DNA of 64,000 nt from positions 1 through 64,000 of the forward strand of contig JAGQGU010000005.1 of the NCBI GenBank assembly GCA_020432165.1, read 5' to 3'. A program made the position numbers and the translations under genes. This stretch comes from Thermomicrobiales bacterium. Lineage in GTDB: Bacteria > Chloroflexota > Chloroflexia > Thermomicrobiales > UBA6265. Positions 1 through 5,462 of the stretch are shown piece after piece. Position 1 is the stretch's first letter, and every line of letters begins with the position of its first letter. The notes under the pieces were generated by a model. The model did not search any database. It was not told the origin of the DNA and saw only the letters and a program-made list of their open reading frames with translations.

Positions 1-23
1 CACCTCAGAGTGCCAAACTTAAG

Positions 24-50
24 AAGAACCCGCCCAAACGGCGGGTTCTT
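24..50 (-). terminator. Terminator hairpin after the sigma factor gene
   Basis: An 11-bp perfect stem (24-34 with 40-50) closes a 5-base loop. On the minus strand it is followed by a moderately T-rich stretch. It lies just past the stop codon of the minus-strand sigma factor gene and may also serve a plus-strand gene entering from the left. Confidence 0.75.
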
Positions 51-67
51 CATAACACCACTGATGT

Positions 68-1549
68 CTACTCCCTGGTGGTGTCAGCGTCATCGGATTC
101 TGATCCAGTCATTTCTCCATCCAGGATCCGCGCGATATCGGCGGCAGCAATCTCGGGATCAACGGTAATCCCGGGGCGTCCCGTGTAGTCTTCGGCGACG
201 AAGAACGGCTGCGTCAGGTAGTCCCGCAGCAACCGAGACCGTCTATCTCCCGGTTGCGTTGAGAGCAACTGGTGCGCGCAAACCGCGACTGGGGAGATAT
301 CCACAGCATGCGAACGCGATACCAATGGATCGATTGCTGGATAGAATCCGTCCCGCCCCATTTCGTGTGACATTGCCACCACCGTATCGACCCGGTCGAG
401 GCTTGACGACAACGCCTCGGGAGAGGCATCGGCAACCGGGATCAACATAGAAGTAACCATCCCTTCAACGCGCATGTTGAGCTGGTGCGCCACGCCGAGT
501 TCGTCGGGGGAAGCAAGAAGGACGAGAATCGTCACTCGTTGCCCCGTTCGACCGAGCCTGGCCGCGAGTTCCTCCACAACAACCAACTTTCCCACGTTCA
601 TCGCGCCCACAAGTGCCACGACCCCACCCTGCACCAGGGGAGCGAAAAGATCTATCACCTTGATGCCTGTTGGAATCACAGCCGGTTGCGCAGCAACGCG
701 GCTCGCATTCACCAACTGGTCGATCGTATGTGCCGAGGCCAAAACCTCGGTCAGATGTCCCTGACTATGCACAGATGCGCCGCTCGGCACATTCGCACGA
801 CCTCCGCGCTCATCAATGGCAATAAGCCTCGCGACATCGTCGTCCAGGTATTGCGAGATGAATGCGGTGATCGCTCGATCGGCGTCGCCTATCTGGACAG
901 CGGTCAGCAAAGGTGGTCGGGATTCGTTGTCGATACGAGCGTCGATTATCAGCTCCCGTGCGCGGATAACGTTTCCGATGGTCTTCGAGAATTCCGGGGT
1001 ATCCAGGTGTTGTGTGCTCATTGGATAAGCTCCTTCCTGGCGCAGGATCGCCCGCGCCTCACGCAGCCGGTTGTTCACGGTACTGATAGAGAGGCCAAGA
1101 AATTCAGCGACTACCGCCTGAGGCTGATCACCGAGGTAATACAGTTGGGCAACCACACGCTGTCTCTCTGGCAGCCGCGCTATGTGGCCAAGAACGCGCT
1201 GAACCTCTCCCCGTACCTCCGCTTGCTGTTCGATATCGATCGCCGGATCAATCACGTCAATGTCTTCGAGCGATGTGCTCTGTTGGCGAGCATGAGCTCG
1301 CAACAAACGCAAGCACTCGAAACGAACGATCCCGCGAAGCCAACTACCGAATCGACCTGGATCGCGAAGAGATGCAAGGTTGCGCCAGGCCGTTATCAAC
1401 GCTTGCTGGGTAGCATCTTCTGCGAGCTGATAATCCCGCAACGTTGTGAGCGCGTATGCGAACGCCATCCCCTGATACCGCGTCACCAGATCAGTGAATG
1501 CGTCTACGTCTCCCTTGATCGATCGCTGAACCAGCGATTCAGTTGTCAT
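68..1549 (-). CDS. ECF-type sigma-70 factor fused to a degenerate F1-ATPase beta-like domain
   Basis: 493 aa. Residues about 5-85 are sigma region 2 and about 112-172 sigma region 4 (LGLSISTVNNRLREAR is the recognition helix), so it should recruit RNA polymerase. The rest follows ATP synthase subunit beta in order: a barrel-like part (189-262, SRPPLLTAVQI and ISQYLDDDVARLIAID), the entry TGIKVIDLFAPLVQGG (294-309), a P-loop-like GAMNVGKL (315-322), FYPAIDPLVSRS (402-413) and LTQPFFVAEDYTGRPG (445-460). The P-loop ends in Leu instead of Thr/Ser, and I see no GER-type catalytic Glu, Walker B or DELSEED segment, so ATP hydrolysis is unlikely. The start at 1549 is chosen because GGAGAGGAGGTG lies just before it; an ATG at 1585 is upstream of that site. 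No anti-sigma gene is adjacent. Homology is seen by eye; the role is inferred. Confidence 0.88.
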   Translation of the reverse strand: MTTESLVQRSIKGDVDAFTDLVTRYQGMAFAYALTTLRDYQLAEDATQQALITAWRNLASLRDPGRFGSWLRGIVRFECLRLLRAHARQQSTSLEDIDVIDPAIDIEQQAEVRGEVQRVLGHIARLPERQRVVAQLYYLGDQPQAVVAEFLGLSISTVNNRLREARAILRQEGAYPMSTQHLDTPEFSKTIGNVIRARELIIDARIDNESRPPLLTAVQIGDADRAITAFISQYLDDDVARLIAIDERGGRANVPSGASVHSQGHLTEVLASAHTIDQLVNASRVAAQPAVIPTGIKVIDLFAPLVQGGVVALVGAMNVGKLVVVEELAARLGRTGQRVTILVLLASPDELGVAHQLNMRVEGMVTSMLIPVADASPEALSSSLDRVDTVVAMSHEMGRDGFYPAIDPLVSRSHAVDISPVAVCAHQLLSTQPGDRRSRLLRDYLTQPFFVAEDYTGRPGITVDPEIAAADIARILDGEMTGSESDDADTTRE

Positions 1550-1710
1550 CGTTTGCACCTCCTCTCCACGCGATATGCGTGTCATAGATAAGTGCCATCG
1601 CGCTATAAACTCCTGTACCCAATACGCATCGCGGGCCCGAGTCGGACGGAGGATACAGGACGATCACTCGCTCTCGTGGTTGTTCACAAGGGGCGACGGG
1701 CGCAAACGCA

Positions 1711-1740
1711 AAACACCCCATCCTCACGGACGGGGTGTTT
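1711..1740 (-). terminator. Terminator after dnaK
   Basis: A 9-bp outer stem (AAACACCCC with GGGGTGTTT), one mismatch and a 3-bp inner stem form a hairpin about 30 bases beyond the dnaK stop codon. It ends the hrcA-grpE-dnaK transcript. Confidence 0.8.
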
Positions 1741-1771
1741 GCATCAGATATTAGGGGTAGGAGTCCGACGT

Positions 1772-3712
1772 CTAGTTCTTGTCGTCGTCGTTGACTTCGC
1801 GGAACTCACCCTCGAAGGTGCTATCGTCATCGGCAGCACCGGTATCGCCCATATCACTGGCATCGAAGCCACTCATGTCGGGACCACCAGCGGCCTGCTC
1901 AGCAGCCTGGTACATGGCGGTACCGGCAGCGGAGAGCGACTGCATCAATGCGTCGTGGGCTGGCTTGATGCGATCGATATTCTCGCGATCGTTCTCGAGC
2001 ACATCCTTGATGTCCGCAATCTTGGCCTGCAGATCACTCTTCAGGTCATCCGGAATCTTGTCGCCATTTTCCTCAACCAGCTTCTCCGCCTGGAACATCA
2101 TGCTCTCGGCTTCGTTGCGGGTATTGATCGCATCCTTGCGCTTGGCATCCTCAGCGGCGTGAATCTCCGCCTCCTTCACCATGCGATCGACTTCCTCGTC
2201 GCTGAGTCCGGAGCTACCAGTGATGGTGATCTTCTGCTCTTTGCTCGTAGCGGTGTCCTTGGCGGTGACGTTCAGGATACCGTTGGCATCAATATCGAAG
2301 GTCACCTCGATCTTCGGGATACCGCGCGGGGCCGGAGCAATACCGTCGAGGATAAAGCGGCCAAGGCTCTTGTTATCGTTCGCCATCGGACGCTCACCCT
2401 GCAGCACATTGATCTCCACCTGCGGCTGATTGTCGCTGGCGGTGGTGAACTGCTGGCTCTTGCGGGCCGGAATGGTAGTGTTGCGCTCGATCAGCGGCGT
2501 GGCCACGCCACCCAATGTCTCGATCGCGAGGGTGAGCGGGGTGACATCCAGAAGGAGGATATCCTTCACTTCACCGCCAAGCACACCGCCCTGGATGGCA
2601 GCACCGATCGCCACCACTTCGTCCGGATTGATGCCCTTGTGTGGCTCCTTGCCGAAGAAGTCCTGCACGGTCTTCTGGACCATCGGCATTCGGGTCTGAC
2701 CACCAACAAGCAGTGCCTCATCGACATCACTCTTGGCGAGACCGGCATCCTTCAGGGCATTCTCCATCGGACCCTTGGTGCGGTTGACCAGATCGCCAAC
2801 CAGGCTCTCCAACTTGGAGCGGGTCAGGGTGATGTTCAGGTGCTTCGGACCGCTAGCATCGGCCGTAATGAACGGCAGATTGACATCGGTCTGCATGGTG
2901 CTGCTGAGCTCGATCTTGGCCTTCTCCGCGGCTTCCTTCAGACGCTGCAGGGCCATGCGATCGTTGCGCAGATCGACGCCTTCGGTCTTCTTGAACTCGT
3001 CGGCCAACCAATTGATGATGACCTGATCGAAGTCATCACCACCAAGGTGGGTATCACCATTGGTCGCGAGCACCTGGAAGACACCATCGCTCAGATCGAG
3101 GATGGAGATATCGTAGGTACCACCACCGAGGTCATAGACGGCCACCTTCTCGTCCTTATCGGTCTTCTCCAGACCGTAGGCGAGTGCGGAAGCGGTCGGC
3201 TCGTTGATGATGCGCAGCACTTCAAGGCCAGCGATCTTGCCGGCATCCTTGGTGGCATCGCGCTGGGCGTTATCGAAGTAGGCCGGAACCGTGATGACTG
3301 CCTTGTCGACCGTCTCACCGAGGTAGGCCTCGGCATCGGTCTTCATTTTCTGCAGGATCATCGCGCTGATTTCCTGCGGGCTGTACCACTTGTCACCCAT
3401 CTTCACCTGCACATCGCCATTCGGGGCAGCCTGCAGGGCATAGGGCACCAGTTCCTTGTCCTTGGCGATAGCGGGATCGTTGAACTTGCGGCCAACGAAA
3501 CGCTTCACCGAGAAGATGGTGTTATCCGGATTGGTCACCGCCTGCCGACGGGCAAAGCGACCGACCAGGCGCTCGCCATTGTTGGTCAACGCGACCACCG
3601 ATGGGGTCAGGCGCTCACCTTCTGCGTTAGGAATAACGACTGGCTCACCACCCTCGATGGTGGCCATAACCGAGTTTGTTGTACCGAGGTCAATACCGAT
3701 TGTTCGTCCCAT
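1772..3712 (-). CDS. dnaK: Chaperone DnaK (Hsp70)
   Basis: ATP-driven cytosolic chaperone of 646 aa, normal for the family. The N-terminal ATPase domain starts with GIDLGTTNS and carries [26 protein letters not shown] and [14 protein letters not shown]. The substrate domain contains the usual [14 protein letters not shown], and the C-terminus is an acidic tail. I chose the second of two close ATG codons (3712): the first (3721) is only two bases from AGGAG, while this one gives an 11-base spacing and the classical [10 protein letters not shown] start. It is the third gene of hrcA-grpE-dnaK. dnaJ does not follow. Confidence 0.98.
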
Positions 3713-3766
3713 AGTTCTCATTTCTCCTTTTGTGGCTCACTGCCACACCAATACGTTTATGTGTAT

Positions 3767-4318
3767 TTACGCCTTGAAATCCGGATCGGCGTCACCGGTG
3801 CGGACCATTGCGGGTCGCAGCATGGTATCGCCCAGCTTGAAGCCCTTCTGATACACCTCGACGACAACTTCGCCACGTGAACCAGGATCGATCGAAACCG
3901 CTTCGTGAATGGCCGGATCAAATGCGGCACCGACACCCGGAACTTCCGTTACACCAGACTGATCGAGGATGTTGTGAAACTTACCCTGAATCATCTGGAT
4001 GCCCTTGAACCAGCTATCGTCGTGCTCGCTCTCCGGCACGGCTGCCATGGCTCTATCCCAATCATCAATGACGGAAAGGAACTTGCCGATAGTGCTAGCC
4101 GTAAAAACTTCGCCCAATCGCAGGCGTTCAGTATCAGTACGCTTGCGCAGATTGATAAACTCGGCGCGACTGCGCTGCAACTGATCGAGATAAAGATCGC
4201 GCTCGGCGGTAAGCCGCTCAATCTCACTCTCTTCGGAGGCCTCTTCTGCCTCAAGCTCCTCGTTATCTGGCTCGCTATCCGGCCAGGTGTCGTATTTCAT
4301 TTGATCGCTGTCTGTCAT
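3767..4318 (-). CDS. grpE: Nucleotide exchange factor GrpE
   Basis: 183 aa. It releases ADP from DnaK. It has an acidic N-terminus, a long coiled-coil helix (about residues 25-75, with AEFINLRKRTDTER) and a C-terminal beta domain with GVGAAFDPAIHEAV and VYQKGFKLGDTMLRPAMV, the family signature. A GGAG site precedes the ATG. It sits between hrcA and dnaK in one transcription unit. Confidence 0.97.
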   Translation of the reverse strand: MTDSDQMKYDTWPDSEPDNEELEAEEASEESEIERLTAERDLYLDQLQRSRAEFINLRKRTDTERLRLGEVFTASTIGKFLSVIDDWDRAMAAVPESEHDDSWFKGIQMIQGKFHNILDQSGVTEVPGVGAAFDPAIHEAVSIDPGSRGEVVVEVYQKGFKLGDTMLRPAMVRTGDADPDFKA

Positions 4319-4334
4319 ACATCTGCTCCATTAC

Positions 4335-4352
4335 ACCGGATCCGTATCCGGT
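4335..4352. repeat. Short hairpin between hrcA and grpE
   Basis: A 7-bp perfect inverted repeat (ACCGGAT with ATCCGGT, 4-base loop) lies in the 53-base hrcA-grpE gap. It has no T-run, so it is more likely a processing or stability element than a terminator. Confidence 0.45.
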
Positions 4353-4371
4353 AACTATTGCTTGCCTGCTC

Positions 4372-5418
4372 TCAGGCCGAATAGAGATCACTCATTAAGT
4401 CGCTCATGAGTCGCGCCATATAGCGCACACTCGGGATACTGTGCCAGTACCTCATCCGCGTTGGACCAAGGACGCCGAGGATACCGGTGACCTCGCCATC
4501 GATACCGTAGGTGGCGATGACAATGCCGAAGTTCCGCAACGCCTGGGCCGGATTCTCCTCGCCGATAAAGACCTGAACATCCTCGCCCGGTGTGAGTTGC
4601 GGCAGTAACTGCCCCAACAGCCCCGAGCCATGCATTAGCTCGACAACGAGCTGGCCCTCGGTGCCGGAAAACTCCGGCTGCATCAGGATCTTGTCGATAC
4701 CCGAATGGCGCACCGGTGTGTCCTGCAGACTATCCATCGTTCGTAGACCGCTCGCGATCTGTTCCAGCACAAAGCCAATAAGCCCACTGGATGCCTGCGC
4801 AAACGGGACGATCTCCGCCGAGGTGAGCCCGCGCAGCATACCAACCTGCTGATCCGCGATGCTGCTCAGGAGCGGTTGCTCGGCTTCCTCCGGGAGATGC
4901 AACATCATCTGGCGCACAGCACTCTCCTGGGTTACCAGGATCATGAGGGCGAGACGTGGCTGCAACGAGACCAGCTCGAAGTGTCGCAATCGCGGGATAT
5001 GGGTGCGTGGGGCAGTCACGATACTCGCCATGCCGGATGTGCTGCTGAGCACACTGGCGGCGAACTCGACCATGCTATCCAGCTGCGCCTCTACCTGTCG
5101 GAACTGATGACGAATCATCACCTGCTCGCTTTGAGCGAGCGCATGGTTCGGCATGAGGTTATGCACGTAGTAGCGATAACCGAGATCGGTGGGTACACGC
5201 CCACCACTGGTATGCGGCTGTGCCACATAGCCCATGTGCTCAAGCGCGACCATCTCGTTACGGATGGTGGCACTGGAGATGGGAGCACCAAAGCGCGCGG
5301 CCAGAGTGGCGCTGCCAACCGGCTTGCCGGAATCCACATACTCACGCACAAGCAACTGCAGCAACTGCTGTCGCCGCGCGGTCATGTCCTCTGGATTGTG
5401 CTGCGTCCGCGTATCCAA
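4372..5418 (-). CDS. hrcA: Heat-inducible transcription repressor HrcA
   Basis: Represses its own operon by binding CIRCE. The N-terminal winged helix is clear (LLQLLVREYVDSGKPVGSAT, then SATIRNEMVALEHMGYV and HTSGGRVPTDLGYRYYV), followed by the GAF-like and dimerisation parts ending in GPTRMRYWHSIPSVRYM. The longest frame opens at a GTG (5448) inside the CIRCE element and is rejected. TTG at 5418 has GGAG seven bases upstream and gives 348 aa; ATG at 5385 is the alternative. It is the first gene of hrcA-grpE-dnaK. Confidence 0.95.
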   Translation of the reverse strand: MDTRTQHNPEDMTARRQQLLQLLVREYVDSGKPVGSATLAARFGAPISSATIRNEMVALEHMGYVAQPHTSGGRVPTDLGYRYYVHNLMPNHALAQSEQVMIRHQFRQVEAQLDSMVEFAASVLSSTSGMASIVTAPRTHIPRLRHFELVSLQPRLALMILVTQESAVRQMMLHLPEEAEQPLLSSIADQQVGMLRGLTSAEIVPFAQASSGLIGFVLEQIASGLRTMDSLQDTPVRHSGIDKILMQPEFSGTEGQLVVELMHGSGLLGQLLPQLTPGEDVQVFIGEENPAQALRNFGIVIATYGIDGEVTGILGVLGPTRMRYWHSIPSVRYMARLMSDLMSDLYSA

Positions 5419-5435
5419 GACACTACTCCATCTCG

Positions 5436-5462
5436 TTAGCACTCTCACACCGAGACTGCTAA
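5436..5462. promoter_or_regulatory. CIRCE operator of the hrcA operon
   Basis: TTAGCACTC, nine bases, then GACTGCTAA, against the consensus TTAGCACTC-N9-GAGTGCTAA. Two adjacent bases of the right arm are swapped. It lies directly downstream of the hrcA promoter, where HrcA would block transcription. Confidence 0.93.

Follow-up and report, generated by a model that had tools for sequence, protein, structure and literature searches.

A recurrent ECF sigma factor with an F1-beta-derived C-terminal extension

Is an open reading frame that begins as a sigma factor and continues as a relative of the ATP synthase beta subunit a single working protein, and what might its second half do for the first? 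The question is raised by a gene at one end of a 64,000-nucleotide stretch of contig JAGQGU010000005.1 (here called the window) from a Thermomicrobiales bacterium. The gene had been placed at 68-1549 from the letters alone, and these limits proved right: it lies on the minus strand, with an ATG at 1549 and a stop codon at 68-70, and forms an open frame of 493 residues (68..1549, stop codon included). The ATG at 1549 was preferred over another at 1585 because of the Shine-Dalgarno-like sequence GAGGAGGTG at 1556-1564. The host genome comprises 3.2 Mb in 105 contigs, and the window starts at base 1 of one of them (C99), which puts the gene at the extreme contig end. That position favors an artifact, in which a sigma gene and atpD were joined by assembly or sequencing; however, the stop codon and a terminator-like hairpin on its 3' side (23..51, minus strand; 12 pairs and a T-rich tail) both lie within the contig, the genuine AtpD of the same genome is encoded on a separate contig (C51), and homologues of the same build show the same joint in 12 other genomes. 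We give this explanation practically no credence, since the relatives already refute it. Because the domain order is shared with those 12 genomes, coincidence and a faulty assembly are both excluded, including the join within the frame of which the sequence-only reading had warned.

The N-terminal portion is an ECF-type sigma factor, as had been read from the sequence. Sigma-70 region 2 (residues 21-88; 1286..1489, minus strand) was identified with Pfam PF04542 at 51.2 bits, and its model superimposes on region 2 of sigmaE (Z 15.6, rmsd 1.5). Region 4 (residues 123-170; 1040..1183, minus strand) was matched by PF08281 and PF04545, with Sigma70_r4_2 covering residues 123-167 at 36 bits. Both Pfam matches are above cut-off and are spaced about 35 residues apart, and the fused protein scores 85 bits with NCBIfam TIGR02937, against a cut-off of 42.9. 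Pfam and TIGR02937 thus give the ECF layout, regions 2 and 4 only, with no region 1 or 3, followed in frame by the part derived from F1 beta.

That part, of about 310 residues with the barrel included, runs collinear with the F1 beta subunit apart from internal deletions, so the long AtpD-like stretch claimed earlier behind the sigma domains is real. The fusion protein scores 31.9 bits with Pfam ATP-synt_ab (cut-off, 29.5). The NCBIfam atpD model, TIGR01039, matches it in four stretches (5.4e-22), although at 78.2 bits against a cut-off of 462.85, which excludes it from the full-length AtpD proteins. Comparison of a profile built from 12 C-terminal parts of the family with one of AtpD aligned 332 columns at E 1.9e-86 and a probability of 100, supplying the F1-family match on which the earlier claim had been made to depend, and a sequence search of the PDB returned collinear pieces of F1 beta: the barrel, the P-loop, the part up to YPAVDP, and the SQPF.VAE.FTGRPG part. 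All the motifs cited before, TGIKVIDLFAPLVQGG, GAMNVGKL, FYPAIDPLVSRS, and LTQPFFVAEDYTGRPG, were found. With the profile match and the barrel fold match both pointing to common descent with AtpD, the extension is derived from F1 beta, and the fusion protein is not itself an AtpD member. Descent from a V-type or flagellar ATPase was considered and rejected; the best matches, in NCBIfam and the PDB, were to AtpD.

The extension opens with an F1-type N-terminal beta-barrel (residues 188-270; 740..988, minus strand), defined by a high-confidence AlphaFold model that matches the F1 alpha and beta barrels with Z of about 12 and rmsd of 1.8 to 2.1; relatives of the fusion protein score above cut-off with Pfam ATP-synt_ab_N. 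A degenerate nucleotide-binding domain follows (residues 287-415; 305..691, minus strand), delimited by Pfam PF00006, the AtpD profile comparison, and alignments. It contains the P-loop remnant GAMNVGKL (residues 315-322; 584..607, minus strand), in which the Lys is retained and the Thr replaced by Leu, and Tyr403 (341..343, minus strand), which lines up with Tyr345 of F1 beta, a residue that stacks on adenine. In the C-terminal part, which includes LTQPFFVAEDYTGRPG (residues 438-480; 110..238, minus strand), Phe449, Ala452, and Tyr455 align with Phe418, Ala421, and Phe424. Compared with AtpD, the alignments show the loss of about 30 residues between the barrel and the P-loop, of about 90 residues carrying GER and Walker B, and of the DELSEED segment. 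The window copy has diverged strongly and is missing the final C-terminal helix of its relatives. AlphaFold modeling placed sigma region 2 and the F1-type barrel confidently and left residues 271-493, with the nucleotide-binding-like part, unsettled. Since both runs, one with full AtpD rows as input and the other with split AtpD rows, were poor past the barrel, we make no claim of fold for these residues.

The same sigma/pseudo-beta build occurs in at least 13 genomes, including that of the window. The search for this domain order in the phylum, suggested by the sequence-only reading, found it in 10 others: one of the same genus (G002), three of the same family (G009, G010, and G025), two of the same order (G038 and G043), two of the same class (G068 and G077), and two elsewhere in the phylum (G181 and G441). 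At least two more belong to an alphaproteobacterial order, namely, Rhodospirillales bacterium URHD0017 (G504, locus L069), among the matches listed in the genome-contig scan, and G551, whose fusion protein is 81% identical to that of G504. Three copies are damaged, with the 5' end cut in G010, the 3' end cut in G043, and a frame break near the P-loop in G068. The spread is patchy; the fusion was found in 9 of the 158 genomes of the window's class, and apart from G002 the gene is missing from the other genomes of the window's genus. No relative was found on viral contigs, no plasmid record covered 80% or more of the query in a tblastn search (the best rows were AtpD-like or sigma only), and PADLOC gave no anti-phage defense match for the fusion protein. 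One further genome (G172) carries a 184-residue C-terminal remnant of a pseudo-beta with no sigma domain (L210, G172:C91:8695-9171, minus strand), probably a decayed copy.

Both halves are under purifying selection in the single close pair available for comparison, G504 and G551, which excludes the window copy: dN/dS is 0.24 for the sigma part and 0.26 for the extension. In a tree built from the beta parts, a branch with SH-aLRT 93 sets 12 fused copies to one side, and two pseudo-betas encoded as separate genes pair with a support of 98; the window copy is the most diverged row, and the deeper branching is unreliable because of long branches.

The two separate pseudo-betas represent a second arrangement. 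In G261 (L205:7899-10243), the gene for an ankyrin-repeat ECF sigma factor is followed directly by a separate gene for a pseudo-beta of 374 residues, with which it shares 4 nt; in G445 (L208:4541-6954), a separate pseudo-beta gene follows an ankyrin ECF sigma gene after 65 nt. Both separate proteins have the GER Glu and the Walker B Asp and lack the barrel. A search of 47 genomes of the class concerned at E of 1e-60 or lower gave two matches only, one of which was the query itself, and both adjoin an ankyrin sigma gene. This arrangement as adjacent genes supports the view that sigma and pseudo-beta are functionally linked, and its presence in two genomes suggests that the pseudo-beta can also act on the sigma factor in trans. 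The sigma parts of the two-gene pairs form a subclade apart from the fused ones, and both fall among ECF factors whose C-terminal domains vary. Sister ECF sigmas (L043, L044, L045, and L047) carry ankyrin repeats, a nucleotidyltransferase, or a GNAT match just below cut-off. The site behind region 4 therefore accepts many modules, and the clade seems to be collecting regulatory ones.

Catalytic residues have been lost from the pseudo-betas. None of the 14 (12 fused, 2 separate) has an intact GK[ST] P-loop, and the GER and Walker B segments are absent from all 12 alignable fused copies; the AtpD combination of GK[ST], GER Glu, and Walker B Asp is thus not intact in the alignments. The missing P-loop Thr, GER Glu, and DELSEED part had been recognized beforehand, and the loss of the whole Walker B segment can now be added. 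The separate pseudo-betas retain Glu188 and Asp256 and have lost Arg189, whereas in the alignment the fused copies have none of the three. From the P-loop helix to the YPAIDP strand the exact register is uncertain, in that the conserved Glu350 may be the counterpart of the GER Glu or of the Glu in AtpD AGSEVS.

The adenine pocket has fared differently. Tyr345, Phe418, and Phe424 of F1 beta sandwich or line the adenine (PMC5608556). Across the 14 pseudo-betas, the Tyr345 position is Y, F, or W (H in one), that of Phe418 is F, L, or M, and that of Phe424 is F, W, or Y. The Ala421 position, which we take to belong to the adenine pocket of F1, is always A. The window copy has Tyr403, Phe449, Tyr455, and Ala452 at the equivalent sites. 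Retention of the pocket positions together with loss of the catalytic residues suggests, from the alignments, that the pseudo-beta binds an adenine nucleotide without hydrolyzing it. The P-loop Lys is lost in G504 and G551 and the Mg-binding Thr in most copies, changes that would weaken nucleotide binding, and the pocket residues may have been preserved for folding.

Control of ECF groups by C-terminal extensions is known, and none of the extensions named for these groups is F1-like (PMC8999054). In ECF41 (SigJ type), too, regions 2 and 4 precede a C-terminal domain with an enzyme fold, which is thought to gate the sigma factor (PMC8999054); that extension is a small SnoaL-like domain, in contrast to the degenerate F1 beta with barrel described here. 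ECF42 (TPR) and ECF238/CorE (metal binding) likewise place ECF control and a C-terminal extension in one protein (PMC8999054), although the TPR or Cys-rich extensions are unrelated to F1. Pfam found no SnoaL, TPR, WD40, or Cys-rich extension of the kinds present in ECF41, ECF42, ECF57, ECF238, and others in the fusion protein, whose only extension match was ATP-synt_ab. AtpD itself shares collinear barrel, P-loop, YPAIDP, and QPFFVAE regions with the extension, which differs in having lost GER, Walker B, DELSEED, and the P-loop Thr and in sitting behind a sigma factor. The Mycoplasma MMOB1670 (gliding) and MSC_0618 families are also diverged F1 beta relatives outside the standard ATP synthase, and their models surface in the NCBIfam scan of the fusion protein with scores far below cut-off; unlike the fusion protein, they are full-length ATPase-type subunits with no link to transcription. 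No description of a sigma factor of this build was found in the literature searched, and to that extent the novelty claimed by the sequence-only reading holds. The protein is a real, recurrent type of ECF sigma factor, undescribed as far as we found, and groups with the ECF factors that have C-terminal extensions. We know of no sigma factor with an F1-derived domain, and to our knowledge F1 beta is not a transcription regulator.

An ECF-like two-box element, GTACAGG-N14-TGGCAC (1592..1618, minus strand), lies upstream of the window gene. The same motif with invariant spacing precedes all 10 of the fused genes of the phylum that have upstream sequence, two of them with mismatches. The pattern ATAMAGM-N14-YGGCAC was spotted by eye in eight upstream regions; G002 and G000 show one or two deviating letters, and exact matches also precede the G068 and G441 copies, which had not been used in motif finding. 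In about 74 Mb from 20 genomes, the exact pattern was counted 20 times, and 8 of these occurrences precede a fused gene; by our arithmetic, this frequency puts a chance match in a 200-nt upstream region, on one strand, at the order of 1e-5. The alphaproteobacterial copies have a similar CCAAAGG-N14-CGGTAC upstream, and the two-gene pairs have GTAACC-N14-TGGGAC (found by eye). ECF-type promoters consist of two short boxes and often serve autoregulation; a conserved motif of fixed spacing ahead of the fused genes suggests that the sigma factor acts on its own gene at this predicted promoter.

By analogy with ECF groups having C-terminal extensions (PMC8999054), we propose that the pseudo-beta gates the sigma factor. 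The domain would bind an adenine nucleotide or related ligand without hydrolysis; binding would shift its packing on sigma regions 2 and 4; the altered packing would free or block the sigma factor for RNA polymerase; and the active sigma would direct transcription of its own gene and of a small regulon. That sigma activity is set by the F1-beta-derived extension, with predicted adenine nucleotide binding and no hydrolysis, is a reading that we are almost as ready to credit as to doubt. The further step, a built-in sensor taken from ATP synthase by which the adenylate state, bound directly by the sigma factor, sets the genes at which RNA polymerase starts, is offered tentatively, as possible rather than probable. 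The sequence-only reading had suggested such a link between energy state and gene expression, and pocket retention combined with loss of the hydrolysis residues would fit it. The extension might instead be a ligand-free autoinhibitory or anti-sigma-like module, relieved by proteolysis or by a partner, its beta ancestry incidental. Some ECF groups operate in this way (PMC8999054), the P-loop drifts between copies, and the sister sigmas bear unrelated C-terminal domains; yet fused and separate versions alike have lost catalysis and kept the pocket positions, and we regard this explanation as rather unlikely. Nor do we think it likely that the pseudo-beta senses proteins, binding a partner of F1 beta (free alpha or an assembly factor) and reporting surplus or failed ATP synthase assembly to the sigma factor. 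The crown barrel makes ring contacts in F1; it survives in 11 of the 12 fused copies that can be aligned and is modeled better than the rest of the extension, and the sister sigma factors carry ankyrin repeats, which are protein-binding modules. Against this, neither G441 nor the two separate pseudo-betas have the barrel, and the DELSEED part is gone.

A useless or decaying read-through fusion is suggested chiefly for the window's copy, by its place as the most diverged row of the tree, by the absence of the gene from other genomes of the genus, and by the C-terminal remnant standing alone in G172. We consider decay very unlikely, however, as the build recurs in at least 13 genomes from several families, the extension is under purifying selection in the one pair compared, the predicted promoter is conserved, and the 493-residue frame is open. 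Its recurrence in a dozen other genomes makes a built-in sensor likelier than an accident. If the gating reading holds, the sigma/pseudo-beta pair, fused or neighboring, would show a core bioenergetic enzyme turned into a signaling part, and one protein with one predicted promoter would offer a simple system for adenylate control of transcription initiation.

A conserved gene neighborhood around the fusion genes was sought and none was seen; the neighbors vary between genomes. In the window, a minus-strand row of hrcA, grpE, and dnaK, named from their translations, lies just upstream of the fusion gene (1772-5448). Membership in a dnaK operon was rejected: a hairpin after dnaK (1705..1745, minus strand; -28.7 kcal/mol, z -7.2) and the gene's own promoter lie between, and no such neighborhood occurs elsewhere. 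An extended promoter pattern allowing two mismatches gave matches not clearly above a reversed control, so no regulon was drawn. The promoter pattern has two matches in the window's genome, the gene's own promoter and one that is not promoter-like. Only one match resembles that of a target gene: in G068, ATAAAGA-N14-TGGCAC precedes a gene for a DUF2382 protein (L172:683-1527), a candidate target in a single case.
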